From: an uncultured Thomasclavelia sp.
Lineage (GTDB): Bacteria > Bacillota_I > Bacilli_A > Erysipelotrichales > Coprobacillaceae
Reading direction: 5' to 3'
NCBI RefSeq assembly: GCF_944324745.1
Contig: NZ_CALUXO010000074.1
Span: forward strand, 1-64,000
DNA: 64,000 bases
The translations under genes and the position numbers were made by a program. Position 1 is the first letter of the stretch; the number at the start of each line of letters is the position of its first letter. The notes beneath the pieces are model-generated. The model was not told the origin of the DNA and ran no database searches. It was given only the letters and a program-made list of their open reading frames with translations. This document shows positions 2,001 through 7,550 of this stretch, in pieces.

Positions 2001-2068
2001 GAAAAACATCTTGGTATAATCTTATTTGTAAAGATATACCGAAGGGAGAGAAGAATAAAATGAAATTA
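2001..2068 (+). repeat. Leader-cassette block, copy A (promoter, 5' leader, first codons)
   Basis: This is the first of four near-identical blocks. It contains TATAAT at 2015-2020, CTTATTTGTAAAGATA, the ribosome-site stretch CCGAAGGGAGAGAAGAAT, and ATG at 2060. Variant states here: upstream flank CATCTTGG before TATAAT, middle GTAAAGATA, and start context AAAATGAAATTA. No good -35 box is present 17 bases upstream of the -10. The outer flank is shared with copy D and not with B or C. Confidence 0.9.
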
Positions 2069-2497
2069 AGTTGGAATAAACCTGAGATTATGGTTGAAAG
2101 TTTTCAACCTAATGAATATGTAGCGGCATGTTTTAAACTAGCTTGTGGTAGAGGTTCTGATCCATCACTACCATATGGGTATCATTGGGATTCACCAGAA
2201 AGAGGAGATGTCAGTCACTCAACAATAGGTACTCCGGATACATGTGGAGATGCAAGTGCAAATAGAGTTATCACTGATGATGGTGGTATTTTCCAAAGCG
2301 TCGGCGAATTCAACGGTGAACAAGGATGGTTAAATGGTGGATTAGATTATATACGTCAAATGGATGGAAATAATACCGTTGATCCAGGTGATGTAATTTT
2401 TTGGCATACTAATGCATCTGGTCGGGGCGATAAAAGAAAATGGAATCACTGGGGAGTTGTTCAACAAGAGGACCCAAATCATCCAAATCATTCATAA
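2060..2497 (+). CDS. Leader-bearing small protein A (candidate modified peptide/protein substrate)
   Basis: The product has 145 residues. Residues 1-24 form the shared leader (MKLSWNKP ... PNEYVAAC), and Cys24 and Cys29 fit a CxxxxC pair; a third Cys is at 62. The rest is polar and rich in Gly, Asp, Asn and aromatic residues. It ends in a segment shared with protein D: GD-I-W, then KR-W-H-G-V, then a final HPNHS. There is no membrane segment or classical signal peptide. Start ATG 2060 follows GAAGGGAGAG in the conserved block. I do not recognise a named family. The invariant leader plus variable body near a radical SAM/SPASM enzyme suggests a RiPP-like substrate, but modification is inference. 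The gene converges on protein B. Confidence 0.75.
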   Translation: MKLSWNKPEIMVESFQPNEYVAACFKLACGRGSDPSLPYGYHWDSPERGDVSHSTIGTPDTCGDASANRVITDDGGIFQSVGEFNGEQGWLNGGLDYIRQMDGNNTVDPGDVIFWHTNASGRGDKRKWNHWGVVQQEDPNHPNHS

Positions 2498-2514
2498 AAT
2501 AAGTACAATAAATA

Positions 2515-2556
2515 AAAAGGTTATTACAAATCATAAGAAATGTAATAACTTTTCTT
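2515..2556 (+). terminator. Terminator after small protein A
   Basis: A stem GTTATTACA/TGTAATAAC is followed by TTTTCTTTT just downstream of the stop of protein A. Confidence 0.75.
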
Positions 2557-2650
2557 TTGGCTATAATTATAAAATTTATGTTTTCTTATAAATATAATTT
2601 ATAAAAACTTAAGTTTATGCAATGTGTTTAATACAAATATTTATGATAAA

Positions 2651-2710
2651 AAATTCACTCATTAAGATGTTATAAAAATACTTTTTTAGTATTTTTATAT
2701 GAGTGAATTT
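2651..2710 (-). terminator. Long two-part hairpin downstream of small protein B
   Basis: The outer arms AAATTCACTCAT and ATGAGTGAATTT (12 bp) enclose a second perfect stem, TATAAAAATACT/AGTATTTTTATA, with an eight-base bulge on one side. Placed 19 bases past the stop of protein B, it most likely ends that transcript. It is larger than most terminators in the window. Confidence 0.65.
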
Positions 2711-2728
2711 AAAATCATTTTTACTTAA

Positions 2729-3127
2729 TTAAGAAGCATTTGGGTTAGTTTCATAATTTTCATTGCCAGGAGTCATAACATGATAATCACTATCAGCTCC
2801 TAACCTTTCATTCCACCAATATACTGCATATGCTCTATCGTGATTAGGATTAGTACCTCTAGTCACAAATCCATTTTCTTCTGGAGGGTTATCTTGAATT
2901 ACGCCCTTATGCCATCTATTGCAGCCACTAAAGCCACCCCATCTGTTTGAGTATAATAATCTATCACCGCTATCCCAACGACCATTATCATTTGAATCAT
3001 CATACAAGTAATAAAAAGTACTATTTCCTTGAGGAGTTGTACATTTTATTTTATAACAAGCTGCAATATATTGATTTGGTTTAAATCCTTCAACCATAAC
3101 TTGTGGTTCATTCCATTCTAACTTCAT
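2729..3127 (-). CDS. Leader-bearing small protein B (candidate modified peptide/protein substrate)
   Basis: The product has 132 residues. The correct start is ATG at 3127: the conserved ribosome-site block precedes it and the leader MKLEWNEP begins there. A longer in-frame start at 3205 would read through the promoter and is rejected. The leader ends PNQYIAAC with Cys24 and Cys29; a third Cys is at 69. The body has DDSNDNGRWDSGD, an Asp/Asn-rich loop reminiscent of metal-binding loops, and ends in NPNAS. There is no transmembrane segment. The gene is convergent with protein A and divergent from the recombinase. The family is unknown to me. Confidence 0.75.
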   Translation of the reverse strand: MKLEWNEPQVMVEGFKPNQYIAACYKIKCTTPQGNSTFYYLYDDSNDNGRWDSGDRLLYSNRWGGFSGCNRWHKGVIQDNPPEENGFVTRGTNPNHDRAYAVYWWNERLGADSDYHVMTPGNENYETNPNAS

Positions 3128-3172
3128 TATTCTTCTCTCCCTTCGGTATATCTTTACAAATAAGATTATATC
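3119..3172 (-). repeat. Leader-cassette block, copy B
   Basis: Reverse-strand copy with TATAAT at 3165-3170. Variant states: flank GATATAATC (shared with C), middle GTAAAGATA (shared with A), start context AATAATGAAGTTA (shared with D). A TTGCAA stands 17 bases upstream of the -10, the best -35 of the four copies. Confidence 0.9.
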
Positions 3173-3380
3173 ACTCTGATTATTTGTTTGCAAATAAATA
3201 TTCACATTTTATGCAATAATAATTCTCATTTTATGTATTTGCTAAAAATATGAGTAATATATTTCTCTTTTTTGTAAAAAATATCGTTGATAAAATTATT
3301 TTTAGGACATATTTGTTGTAATTTTTTCGGAAATTTACTCTTAATTTATGTTCCAAAAACAACAAAAAAGGAGAAGAAAA

Positions 3381-4514
3381 ATGGCGATTAGAAAGAGAAA
3401 AAGTAAGAAAGCAGAATCAGGTTTTACATATCAAGTTTACTTTAATTATGTTGATATTTTTAGTGGTGAACGTAAGAGATTTTCAAAGAGTGGATTCTTT
3501 TCATATGATGATGCGATATTGTATGAAAAGAGAAAAAGGATTGAATTAAATGCAGAACAAAATTATATAAAAAAATATAAAGTAACTATTGATCAAGTAT
3601 TTGATGAATGGCTTGAATTAGAAGCTGTTCATTTTTATCAGGATAATACTATTATTGATTATAGGAGCAGGTATAATAAACATATAAAAAATAGACTTGG
3701 AAATATTTTAATAAGTGAAATTAATTATAGATTGTTTCAATCGTATTTTAATGAGAATTCTAATATTGGAATTGCAACTAATTATAAATTAAAAGATATT
3801 TTGAATGTAATTATTAATTTTGGAATTAAATGTAATTATGTTGATAATAATCCATTAAAACTAGTTCATATAACTGGAGAATATCGACCTAGAAATAAAA
3901 ACAATTTAGTTTATAAAGATGAAGATTTTTTTAGAATAATTGAAAAACTAAATGATAATCCTTCTGACATTAGAAATGCATATATAACGGCTTTATTTAT
4001 TGGCCGTTATACTGGTTTAAGAATTTCTGAAGTTTTTGCATTAGATAAAGATGATTTTGATTTTGACAATCAACTTATTTATATATCTAAAAAAATGATA
4101 TATGCAAATAAAACCAGAAAAGAACTAATCGTTTCATCACAAATGAAAACTAAGTCATCCAAAGCCATATTACCATTTCATCAAGACTTACAAGAAATAA
4201 TATCTAAATGGCTTAAAATTCATCCCCACAAACATGTTGTTAGTGACAGTCATGGTAAATATTTAAATCCAAAGCAATTAGAATATACACTATGGAAAAT
4301 ATCTAAAGAATTAGATACTCATTTCCATTTTCATATGTTAAGACATACTCTAGCAACAAGACTTGTAAATAGTGGAGCTGAGCTAAAAGCAACTCAAGAA
4401 CTTCTTAGACATTCTAATATCACAACTACTATGAATATCTATACTCATGTCAATGAATCTAATAAAATCGAAGCATTATATAAGGCTTTTCCTAAAAAAG
4501 ATAGCACTAAGTAA
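3381..4514 (+). CDS. Tyrosine-type site-specific recombinase/integrase inside the cassette cluster
   Basis: The product has 377 residues from ATG 3381, chosen because AAAAAAGGAG lies directly upstream; an earlier in-frame ATG at 3348 lacks a ribosome site. A basic N-terminal arm domain, a SAM-like core-binding domain and a C-terminal catalytic domain are visible. The catalytic set is complete: Arg214 (GLRISE), a Lys near 261, His318-x-x-Arg321 (HMLRH), His344 (RHSNI) and Tyr354 (NIYTHV). It is flanked by inverted leader blocks B and C, and its stop lies four bases before block C. That is where an attachment site next to an integrase would be expected. I infer it mobilises or rearranges cassettes. 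Its true substrate site is not shown by sequence alone. Confidence 0.9.
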   Translation: MAIRKRKSKKAESGFTYQVYFNYVDIFSGERKRFSKSGFFSYDDAILYEKRKRIELNAEQNYIKKYKVTIDQVFDEWLELEAVHFYQDNTIIDYRSRYNKHIKNRLGNILISEINYRLFQSYFNENSNIGIATNYKLKDILNVIINFGIKCNYVDNNPLKLVHITGEYRPRNKNNLVYKDEDFFRIIEKLNDNPSDIRNAYITALFIGRYTGLRISEVFALDKDDFDFDNQLIYISKKMIYANKTRKELIVSSQMKTKSSKAILPFHQDLQEIISKWLKIHPHKHVVSDSHGKYLNPKQLEYTLWKISKELDTHFHFHMLRHTLATRLVNSGAELKATQELLRHSNITTTMNIYTHVNESNKIEALYKAFPKKDSTK

Positions 4515-4518
4515 GTTT

Positions 4519-4576
4519 GATATAATCTTATTTGTAGATAGATATACCGAAGGGAGAGAAGAATAAAATGAAATTA
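4519..4576 (+). repeat. Leader-cassette block, copy C
   Basis: TATAAT is at 4521-4526, only six bases after the recombinase stop codon. Variant states: flank GATATAATC (as B), middle GTAGATAGATA (as D), start context AAAATGAAATTA (as A). Start ATG is at 4568. Confidence 0.9.
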
Positions 4577-4978
4577 GAATGGAATGAACCTAAGATCATA
4601 GCTGAAGAATTTAAATCAAATGAATTTGTTGCAGCTTGTGGTGATAGTGGTACTACTTATTTGTTTAATTGCGATGCCGGTGGAGGAACACCTGGTAGTG
4701 TATATCAAGAAACAAATGGAAAAGATGGATTACAAACAACTGGCGGAAGGGGTTATAGAGCTGATACAGAACTTACTGCCTGGCCATTTAATTATTACTA
4801 TGCTTGTGACGAAAAACACACTGCTGAATCAACTGATGATTTTCTTAACGGATATTATTGTCCAAATGGCTATACGAGAAACGCCCAACAAGTTATTATC
4901 TGGCGAGGTATTCATGGCGATGATATTCACTGTACAACTAATCTTGATCAGGATTCATGGGAAACAGCAAAATCATAA
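4568..4978 (+). CDS. Leader-bearing small protein C, directly upstream of the radical SAM enzyme
   Basis: The product has 136 residues with leader MKLEWNEPKI ... SNEFVAAC. It is the most cysteine-rich copy (Cys 24, 35, 80, 98, 122) and lacks the Cys29 found in A, B and D. The body carries Gly/Thr-rich stretches and several Tyr-Cys pairs (YYYAC, GYYC) and ends TAKS, not the HPN-S ending of A and D. A hairpin and U-run separate it from the radical SAM gene 52 bases downstream on the same strand. I infer it is the primary substrate of that enzyme. A second open frame overlapping it is a shadow. Confidence 0.75.
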   Translation: MKLEWNEPKIIAEEFKSNEFVAACGDSGTTYLFNCDAGGGTPGSVYQETNGKDGLQTTGGRGYRADTELTAWPFNYYYACDEKHTAESTDDFLNGYYCPNGYTRNAQQVIIWRGIHGDDIHCTTNLDQDSWETAKS

Positions 4979-4988
4979 TTTAATACTG

Positions 4989-5013
4989 GTTGGAGATTAT
5001 CTCCAACTTTTTT
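4989..5013 (+). terminator. Intra-operon terminator/attenuator between protein C and the radical SAM gene
   Basis: A perfect stem GTTGGAGA-TTA-TCTCCAAC is followed by TTTTTT. Partial read-through here would give more substrate than enzyme, a layout seen in many RiPP operons. Confidence 0.8.
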
Positions 5014-5030
5014 GTTAAATAGGAGTAGTT

Positions 5031-6149
5031 ATGGAAAATGAAATAGAATATAAAGATACTTTAGAAAAATTTTTATTTACAAAAGCTTATAATAAATCAC
5101 TTCCAATATATGGTGTATTAGAATTAACACCTTTATGTAATATGAATTGTGATATGTGTTATGTTAGATTATCTATAAATGAAATGAATAAAAAAGGTAA
5201 ACTTCGTTCATTAGTAGAATGGATTTCATTAGCTGATGAAATGAAAAGTAATGGAGTCTTATTTATATTGCTAACTGGTGGTGAACCTTTATTATATCCA
5301 GGATTTAAAGAATTATATCTACATTTGATAAAAATTGGAATGATAGTAACCGTTAATACCAATGGTACATTAATTGATGATGAATGGATTCAATTTTTTA
5401 TTCAACATAGACCTAGACGTATAAACATAACATTATATGGCGATGATGAAAAAACATATGAAGATTTATGTCATTATGGTAAAGGATTTAATAAAGTTAT
5501 AAATGCTTTAAAAATGCTTAAGAAATATGATATACCAGTAAAGATAAATGGAAGTTTAACAAAAATCAATATGCACTGTGCAGATGGTATTCTAGATATA
5601 GGAGAACAATTAGATATACCAGTAAGAATAGATACCTATATGTGTTCAGGTGTTCGTGAAAGAAATAAACCATTTGCTTTTCAAAACAGAATGGACCCTA
5701 TAACTGCTGCCAGAACTAGAATGAAAGTTTTACATCGAGAAATGGGTGATGAAGTGTTCTTTACTTCATGTAAATATGAGCTGGATAAAATCAATTATAC
5801 TGATAAAGGTGAAAATCAACCATATAGTATGAAATGTAAGGCCGGAAGATGTTCATTTACAATTAATTGGCAAGGTAAAATGAGGCCCTGTGTAATAATG
5901 ACAGAGCCAAGTATAGATGTTTTTGAAACTGGTTTTAAAGAGTCATGGAAAATACTTGTTGAAAAAACAAGATCAATTAAAGGTGGCTCAAAATGTAATC
6001 AATGTAAACTAAGAAATTATTGCAATACTTGTCCAGCATATGCATTATTAGAAGAAGGAAAATATGATAGTGTACCAAGATATATTTGTGAGTATACTAA
6101 AGAATCAATTGAAGTTATGAAAAATGAATTATGTAAAACTAGCAAATAA
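5031..6149 (+). CDS. Radical SAM/SPASM maturase-like enzyme
   Basis: The product has 372 residues. The [4Fe-4S]-SAM motif is Cys36-x3-Cys40-x2-Cys43 (CNMNCDMC), and the SAM-binding GGEP is at 83-86. A C-terminal SPASM-type cysteine set follows: Cys269, 274, 287, 322, 325, 331, 334 and 353, which would bind auxiliary Fe-S clusters. The ribosome site AGGAG is seven bases before ATG. Family knowledge: SPASM enzymes install thioether, C-C or epimerised residues in ribosomal peptides, or activate sulfatases. With no sulfatase nearby and protein C upstream, a peptide-modifying role is the best inference. There is no RRE-like or B1-type partner protein, and no exporter or peptidase within the cluster. 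Confidence 0.85.
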   Translation: MENEIEYKDTLEKFLFTKAYNKSLPIYGVLELTPLCNMNCDMCYVRLSINEMNKKGKLRSLVEWISLADEMKSNGVLFILLTGGEPLLYPGFKELYLHLIKIGMIVTVNTNGTLIDDEWIQFFIQHRPRRINITLYGDDEKTYEDLCHYGKGFNKVINALKMLKKYDIPVKINGSLTKINMHCADGILDIGEQLDIPVRIDTYMCSGVRERNKPFAFQNRMDPITAARTRMKVLHREMGDEVFFTSCKYELDKINYTDKGENQPYSMKCKAGRCSFTINWQGKMRPCVIMTEPSIDVFETGFKESWKILVEKTRSIKGGSKCNQCKLRNYCNTCPAYALLEEGKYDSVPRYICEYTKESIEVMKNELCKTSK

Positions 6150-6150
6150 T

Positions 6151-6199
6151 AAAAAACTATTGTTATGCAGACTCAATTTAAGTCTGAACAATAGTTTTT
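6151..6199. terminator. Bidirectional terminator between radical SAM gene and protein D
   Basis: Arms AAAAACTATTGTT and AACAATAGTTTTT flank an inner AGACT/AGTCT stem, with A and T tracts on the two sides. It serves the two convergent genes. Confidence 0.85.
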
Positions 6200-6203
6200 A
6201 TCA

Positions 6204-6629
6204 TTATGATCTATTTGGATGACCTGGAGTGGTTTCCGTTACCCGGCCTTGGTGATGCCATGTACGTTTATTCAAAAAAGAACCAGCACTAGTTGTCCAA
6301 TAAATATAATCACCTACTTCAACTTCACTGATATTACCTTGTCTCTTATAAGTACCATCTGTATAAATCGTACACGCTAATGTTCCAAGACCATCAGTAT
6401 TGATTTCGGACATTCTTTCAGGTGTACCATCATTATTACTGTCTGTTAGCCATTGATGTCCAATCGTTCCACAATGTTCACTTCGATGATCTTGCGCTGA
6501 ATTATGAATCGAACTCTCATACTTATTTGCAAGTCCAGTTTCACAAGCAACACCCCAACAAACAGCAACATATTCATTAGGTTCAAATTCTTGAACTTGT
6601 ATACTAGGATTTTTCCATTCTAACTTCAT
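6204..6629 (-). CDS. Leader-bearing small protein D (candidate modified peptide/protein substrate)
   Basis: The product has 141 residues. Leader MKLEWKNP ... PNEYVAVC ends with Cys24, and Cys29 follows; further Cys are at 53 and 86. The C-terminal third resembles protein A: GD-I-W-T-SAG, KR-W-H-G-V, then P-HPNRS. A and D also share an H-S/C-TIG segment in mid-body. So A and D are closer to each other in the body than to B or C, although they lie at opposite ends of the cluster. Start ATG 6629 lies in the conserved block. The gene is convergent with the radical SAM gene. Function unknown. Confidence 0.75.
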   Translation of the reverse strand: MKLEWKNPSIQVQEFEPNEYVAVCWGVACETGLANKYESSIHNSAQDHRSEHCGTIGHQWLTDSNNDGTPERMSEINTDGLGTLACTIYTDGTYKRQGNISEVEVGDYIYWTTSAGSFLNKRTWHHQGRVTETTPGHPNRS

Positions 6630-6689
6630 TATTCTTCTCTCCCTTCGGTATATCTATCTACAAATAAGATTATACCAAGATGTTTTTTC
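6621..6689 (-). repeat. Leader-cassette block, copy D
   Basis: Reverse copy with TATAAT at 6669-6674. Variant states: flank CATCTTGG before TATAAT (as A, extending outward through the run of A residues), middle GTAGATAGATA (as C), start context AATAATGAAGTTA (as B). With copy A it forms an outer inverted repeat bounding about 4.7 kb. Confidence 0.9.
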
Positions 6690-6797
6690 ACCTTATGAAT
6701 TTGGCACTGATAATAAGAATAAATAAATGTAATATTTTTCAATAAAATAGATTTTTTAATAATAATTTTCATTGAATATTAACCCTAACAAATACAA

Positions 6798-6890: not shown

Positions 6891-7550
6891 CTAATTATAT
6901 TTTTTAGCCATTTTATATGTATAATAAATATCAAATGGTAAAGATCCTATAAGAATGACCAAAGATAAAATAATACTAATTGATGAATGAACTAATAAGT
7001 TTATCATAATCATCAATAAACCAACAATGATAAATGATTTCCCACCAAATTGTTGACTTTTCTTCCATGTTATTTCATTTTTCATACTCCAACTAGTTCT
7101 AAGACCAATCATAGAGTTCATTTCTAATTTTGGCATCATAATACCCAGAATTATAATAATCACGCCTAATAATATAAAACTAAGTTGTTGAATATTGATT
7201 GGCATAGTAGATAAATTTTCAACTCTATTAAAATCAGCATAGAGAAAATAGAAAAACAAGATATTAAAAAATAATAACAACATTATACCTAAATTAATAC
7301 CTATTTTCTTATTATTTCCCCTACTTTTTTCTTGCTTAGAAGCATATTTTGTAATCAGAAGCATGATAAAACCAAAAATAACCGTTATTGCCGGAAAGAT
7401 AAATGTTTCATATTTACTACCCCACCTATCAACTCCACCATCGATTCCATAGTGAGCAGGAATTTGATCAGGTAAAAATGGTAACAAAACTAAAACCATA
7501 AATAATGGTAAAAACATTAGAAAGTAAAATAGTTTATTATTATTATTCAT
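6891..7550 (-). CDS. SdpI-family membrane protein (DUF1648 + SdpI domain)
   Basis: The product has 219 residues and about six hydrophobic segments. The N-terminal part (FLPDQIPAHYGIDGGVDRWG) is a DUF1648 signature. The second half (MIGLRTSWSMKNEITWKKSQ) matches the SdpI family. In Bacillus subtilis SdpI gives immunity to the SDP toxin and senses it; many homologues are of unknown role. The ribosome site AAAGGAG lies upstream of ATG 7550. It sits 260 bases from protein D on the same strand with a terminator after it, so it is probably its own unit. An immunity role for the adjacent small proteins is possible but is inference. No sdpR-like gene is adjacent. Confidence 0.8.
   Translation of the reverse strand: MNNNNKLFYFLMFLPLFMVLVLLPFLPDQIPAHYGIDGGVDRWGSKYETFIFPAITVIFGFIMLLITKYASKQEKSRGNNKKIGINLGIMLLLFFNILFFYFLYADFNRVENLSTMPINIQQLSFILLGVIIIILGIMMPKLEMNSMIGLRTSWSMKNEITWKKSQQFGGKSFIIVGLLMIMINLLVHSSISIILSLVILIGSLPFDIYYTYKMAKKYN

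Follow-up and report, generated by a model that had tools for sequence, protein, structure and literature searches.

A probable site-specific inversion switch for leader-bearing precursor proteins of a RiPP-like pathway in Thomasclavelia

Why should a tyrosine recombinase gene lie among four genes for small proteins that begin alike and then diverge, with a radical SAM/SPASM enzyme gene close by? This question is raised by a locus in the window, the 64,000-nucleotide stretch analyzed here (positions 1 to 64,000 of contig NZ_CALUXO010000074.1, assembly GCF_944324745.1) from an uncultured Thomasclavelia species. A sequence-only reading had given positions for the four genes with the common start (leader genes, here g1 to g4), the recombinase gene and the radical SAM/SPASM gene, and all of them were found at those places (Table 1). 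The best explanation, and in our judgement a probable one, is a site-specific inversion switch for the precursor proteins of a pathway resembling those of ribosomally synthesized and post-translationally modified peptides (RiPPs). The genomes compared were mostly drafts or metagenome-assembled genomes (MAGs).

The strongest repeat of the locus was not the leader but the 47–50 bp of DNA upstream of it, in which inverted partners are 98% identical. This upstream repeat opens, at each of the four genes, with a 16-mer core, TATAATCTTATTTGTA, whose orientation alternates along the locus, so that the recombinase gene falls between inverted sites; sites 1 and 3 are direct, as are sites 2 and 4. The core has no further copy in the window genome. 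Among 43 genomes of the family it was present in four, all carrying leader genes, and every copy in those four genomes sits shortly upstream of a leader-gene start. A reversed-pattern control gave no match in the 43 genomes, and the pattern is not due to chance. Between species the core is unchanged while the surrounding DNA diverges, as expected of a protein-binding or crossover site. Viral contigs gave ten scattered single core matches, and in the examined part of 27 stretches from named genomes the core occurred, outside the leader-gene genomes, without a leader gene at L057, L062, L063, L066, L067 and L074; the remaining core matches among these stretches, beyond those examined, were taken as chance. 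On their outer sides (2002–2014 and 6675–6687), sites 1 and 4 are flanked by 13 bp more of shared sequence, AAAAACATCTTGG, inverted relative to each other and absent at the inner sites.

The recombinase matched Pfam Phage_integrase (E 7e-31); its open reading frame extends from 3348, and its relatives begin at 3381. These relatives, with 56–78% identity, were found in Thomasclavelia MAG.139, Massilimicrobiota and Traorella (two loci). At four of the five recombinase loci (window, MAG.139, Massilimicrobiota and one in Traorella) the gene lies between inverted copies of TATAATCTTATTTGTA, each followed by an outward-pointing leader gene. The fifth, with the second Traorella recombinase (57% identical to that of the window), is a 3.5-kb contig whose ends carry another core, TGAAATAGTCTTACATTTCA, inverted and placed inside a 53-bp identical repeat that runs into the start of a leader gene; the interior has genes for a leader protein, a radical SAM enzyme and PqqD. 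A different core is thus found where the recombinase has diverged, so that recombinase and site have changed together. In both cores the two arms form an inverted repeat, an imperfect one in TATAATCTTATTTGTA, and the cores have TCTTAY in common at their middle; the sites of tyrosine recombinases have arms of this kind. All five recombinases fall into one clade (100/100 support), separate from element-type integrases of the same bacterial family, and the catalytic residues are intact in four of them. No further member of the clade was found at a strict cut-off in a class-wide sample, and viral contigs held no relative. Whereas an integrated mobile element is bounded by direct repeats, the sites that flank the recombinase are inverted in all five loci, which favors an invertase. 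The central role that the sequence-only reading gave to the recombinase is borne out by these inverted sites and made concrete as that of a candidate switch.

The placement of promoter elements points in the same direction. TTGCAA or TTGCAT (TTGCAW) stands exactly 17 bp ahead of the TATAAT of the core at all four sites on the 5' side of a recombinase gene and at none of 12 others (exact P = 1/1820 if sites are exchangeable). When the four intergenic regions were aligned, the -35 box, the spacing and the core stood out as conserved islands in diverged DNA. In the window, the left half of site 2 supplies the -10 element of the predicted promoter, preceded by TG. A consensus scan of the window ranked this promoter among the best and found none at the other three sites; overall, the scan gave no more promoters than shuffled DNA, and the weight therefore rests on the comparison between species. 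What is single in the sequence is the -35 box only, as the -10 element stays at the silent sites. Both in the window and in the Massilimicrobiota and Traorella tandem arrays, terminator-like hairpins were found 3' of leader genes; among the six sequences folded, one had been cut too short and one folded no better than shuffles. The sequence-only reading had missed the sites and the alternation of their orientation, as well as the single promoter.

Table 1 Features of the leader-gene locus, in window coordinates.
Feature	Coordinates	Strand	Remarks
Leader gene g1, 145 aa	2060..2497	+	site upstream without -35
Leader gene g2, 132 aa	2729..3127	-	joined to the predicted promoter in the assembled orientation
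Leader gene g3, 136 aa	4568..4978	+	body homologous to bodies in MAG.139, Massilimicrobiota and contig C97 of the same genome
Leader gene g4, 141 aa	6204..6629	-	58% identity over full length to a sister-species leader protein
Site 1, TATAATCTTATTTGTA	2015..2030	+	16-mer search
Site 2, TATAATCTTATTTGTA	3155..3170	-	16-mer search
Site 3, TATAATCTTATTTGTA	4521..4536	+	16-mer search
Site 4, TATAATCTTATTTGTA	6659..6674	-	16-mer search
Predicted promoter, -35 TTGCAA, 17 bp, -10 TATAAT	3165..3193	-	directed out of the recombinase segment into g2
Tyrosine recombinase, 377 aa	3381..4514	+	catalytic R, K, HxxR, H and Y all present
Radical SAM/SPASM enzyme, 372 aa	5031..6149	+	66% identical to the contig C97 enzyme
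Proposed invertible segment A: g1 and g2	2015..3170		bounded by inverted sites 1 and 2
Proposed invertible segment B: recombinase and outward promoter	3155..4536		bounded by inverted sites 2 and 3; inversion inferred
Proposed invertible segment C: g3, radical SAM gene and g4	4521..6674		bounded by inverted sites 3 and 4
Terminator-like hairpin 3' of g1	2515..2558	+	folding against shuffles, z -6.0
Terminator between g3 and radical SAM gene	4988..5008	+	sequence scan and folding

From this layout we propose that the recombinase has as its targets the 16-bp cores, one of which lies in each leader gene's 5' untranslated region. The recombinase gene itself would travel on a segment between inverted sites, the 5' end of which holds the -35 box while the site gives the -10 element, and this segment would deliver the promoter to whichever leader gene adjoins the 5' end of the recombinase gene. 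Genes at the other sites retain a -10 element and a ribosome-binding site without a -35 box. Each site may be seen as a gene half joined to an upstream half that does or does not have the -35 box, and inversion would re-pair the halves and switch expression; in the assembled state g2 stands at the promoter. Because the four sites alternate in orientation, 16 arrangements can be reached through inversions in the computed configurations, with each gene joined to the promoter in four of them. The direct pairs (1/3 and 2/4) could yield deletion of cassettes or, in reverse, their capture, which would fit the tandem arrays seen in relatives. The translated protein would carry a constant leader and a variable body of 108–121 residues; the leader would be recognized by PqqD, whose gene lies elsewhere in the genome, and the body would be modified by a SPASM enzyme, with cleavage and export presumably to follow.

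The leader proteins themselves are consistent with such precursors. After residue 24 the bodies of g1 to g4 measure 121, 108, 112 and 117 residues, within the range that had been given for them. An almost identical 24-residue start had also been described; the start is indeed common to the four, but near-identity did not hold (g2 and g3 are identical at 15 of 24 positions). Synonymous differences exceeded non-synonymous ones in every pair of leaders (proportions pS 0.32–0.64 versus pN 0.15–0.26), so the leader reflects an old constraint at the protein level and no recent copy. For g2, the start at 3127 was preferred to an alternative GTG at 3205, since a ribosome-binding site and the leader align at 3127. 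The leaders of the window proteins are without a hydrophobic stretch. No Pfam or NCBIfam family matched the leader proteins above its cut-off; one Pfam match lay far below and was chance-like. Cysteines 24 and 29 (g1 numbering) are invariant among 24 aligned leader proteins, the bodies being otherwise unlike, and nearly all of these proteins have a C-terminal serine. A leader profile matched 10 of 315 genomes of the order at E ≤ 0.01, some of the matches being weak, and no leader loci were found outside the order in a phylum-wide sample. One profile match, in G184 (E 0.005), had no radical SAM gene nearby and is probably false. A fifth leader gene of the window genome, on contig C97, has no core site upstream, and the sister-species locus that encodes the closest relative of g4 has no recombinase.

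Do these proteins belong to a RiPP-like pathway? The enzyme gene of the window matched Pfam Radical_SAM (E 1e-27), and its product is a maturase with SPASM-type cysteines encoded beside the precursor, although the Pfam SPASM match was itself under the cut-off. At most loci, across several genera, a radical SAM gene of this type is found no more than a few kb from the leader gene, in keeping with the earlier claim that leader, variable body and SPASM enzyme follow RiPP logic; the refuting condition set with that claim, leader homologs that never accompany radical SAM genes, did not come true. The usual companions are PqqD (Pfam PF05402) and an HPrK-like protein; an S24-type peptidase, a nucleotidyltransferase (PF14907) and an ABC transporter are frequent. 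Exceptions were two loci in G022 and, as far as the sequence read extends, Traorella C17 and Massilimicrobiota C89. An exporter, a peptidase and an RiPP recognition element (RRE) had been reported as absent, which is right for the window but not for the genome. Around the fifth leader gene, contig C97 encodes radical SAM, PqqD (RRE), HPrK-like, S24-type and nucleotidyltransferase proteins, and C100 an ABC transporter 90% identical to one in the sister-species cluster. The RRE is thus missing only locally, as PqqD is encoded on C97, from where it could be supplied in trans and would then serve the window proteins. The earlier suggestion of interchangeable substrates is likewise supported.

A switch might still be real without its products being RiPPs: they could be small folded secreted or surface proteins, with the radical SAM gene a bystander. 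The bodies are long for RiPP precursors, and a structure prediction for the g3 type gave mostly strands after a disordered leader, at low confidence (pLDDT, predicted local distance difference test, 66). This model had no PDB match by fold or by sequence, and the fold is too uncertain for a function to be read from it. Several leader/radical SAM clusters moreover lie in or beside exopolysaccharide operons (L023, L028, L030, L100 and L136; genes for CpsB-like phosphatase, Wzz-like and CpsD-like proteins and sugar transferase, identified by eye from sequence), and this location hints at a role of the products at the cell surface. Set against this are the co-occurrence of radical SAM and PqqD genes with the leader across genera and the protein-level constraint on the leader; PqqD-type proteins are established, for PQQ (pyrroloquinoline quinone) and others, as binders of RiPP precursor leaders. 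We therefore regard a non-RiPP role as unlikely.

Quite unlikely, too, is an integron-like exchange in which the recombinase chiefly excises and inserts cassettes (site, gene and terminator) across loci and genomes, with inversion secondary. Massilimicrobiota and Traorella have site-gene units in direct tandem arrays, MAG.139 has a lone unit, and homologous bodies occur across species (58% over full length), all of which such exchange would leave behind. Yet every recombinase locus has inverted sites on either side of the gene and promoter, the layout of an invertase; all positions share a single core with no distinct entry site, and no circles were seen. The two activities are not exclusive, and the same enzyme could do both. 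That the recombinase is a leftover mobile-element integrase, and the repeats promoter duplications from copying of leader genes, is highly improbable: its nearest other relatives are element-type integrases and its Pfam domains are those of integrases, but the flanking sites are inverted at all five loci where an integrated element would have direct repeats, the cluster has no other mobile-element genes, the leader-locus enzymes are a clade of their own, and the core is better conserved between species than the remaining upstream DNA and altered where the recombinase diverged.

Other observations weigh against the inversion switch itself. No inverted arrangement was seen within the same species, each species being represented by one genome. 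As the five recombinases share ancestry, the promoter counts all come from one clade of loci and are not independent. TATAAT is kept at the silent sites, in Thomasclavelia together with the TG of an extended -10 element, so that silencing may be incomplete. The radical SAM gene is fixed beside g3, behind a terminator, and would hence be separated from the promoter in most arrangements, in which case the C97 enzyme could take its place. Finally, the Massilimicrobiota recombinase is broken in its assembly; a deletion and a frame change precede the catalytic C-terminus (L027 641–1771), and this locus may be locked or the MAG wrong.

Among known systems, the nearest in layout are Vpma of Mycoplasma agalactiae and Vsp of Mycoplasma bovis, where a tyrosine recombinase encoded in the locus (Xer1 for Vpma) drives phase variation (PMC2268961). 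There the sites lie in a conserved 5' untranslated region ahead of genes with a conserved start, a variable body and terminators, inversion joins one promoter to silent genes, and the products are surface lipoproteins with signal peptides (PMC2268961). The window locus has each of these DNA features, with inversion inferred. In contrast to Vpma and Vsp, its leader lacks a hydrophobic stretch and is accompanied by radical SAM and PqqD genes, the -10 element belongs to the site, and the recombinase travels on the promoter segment. A recombinase gene and an outward promoter on a (here proposed) invertible segment are also found in Hin/fljBA of Salmonella; Hin is a serine recombinase that turns one operon on or off, whereas here a tyrosine recombinase would choose among several cassettes. 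With the R64 shufflon the locus has in common several inverted sites and a tyrosine recombinase that picks alternatives, but the shufflon swaps C-terminal ends of one protein and here whole genes would be exchanged behind one promoter.

On the side of the products, the short leader, SPASM enzyme, separate PqqD-type protein and HPrK-like protein recall PQQ, mycofactocin and SynChlorMet, the last of which includes an HPrK-like protein. The differences are a body of more than 100 residues, precursors that match no family and an enzyme far under every listed NCBIfam cut-off (75.5 bits versus 400 for the ScmE model of SynChlorMet). QhpC/QhpD of quinohemoprotein amine dehydrogenase (gamma subunit) likewise pairs a SPASM enzyme with a substrate protein of about 100 residues that carries a short leader, but has neither multiple variants nor a recombinase. 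We found no report of an inversion switch for RiPP precursors in the open-access literature.

Two neighboring genes were also noted. A predicted AAA-ATPase/PDDEXK_9 gene (251–1816, - strand) adjoins the outermost cassette, and a similar gene adjoins the lone MAG.139 cassette (L082 10247–10732). Directly past g4 lies a gene for an SdpI/YfhL-type protein, an immunity-protein family (6891–7550, - strand); none was noticed beside the other leader loci.

Taken further, the inversion switch would amount to a shufflon for RiPP precursors, in which each cell of a clone makes one out of a set of modified proteins, selected by inversion, and new bodies arrive on cassettes that enter from other species by way of the same recombination site; we lean slightly toward this wider picture. 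Known inversion switches select surface antigens, flagella, pili, capsules or restriction specificities. If the proposal is true, a DNA switch would here choose the substrate of a post-translational modification, and phase variation would be joined with RiPP biosynthesis. More such precursors could then be found by searching for the site instead of the protein. The arrangement also suggests selection for variability on these proteins, as in antigens, phage receptors and competition factors.

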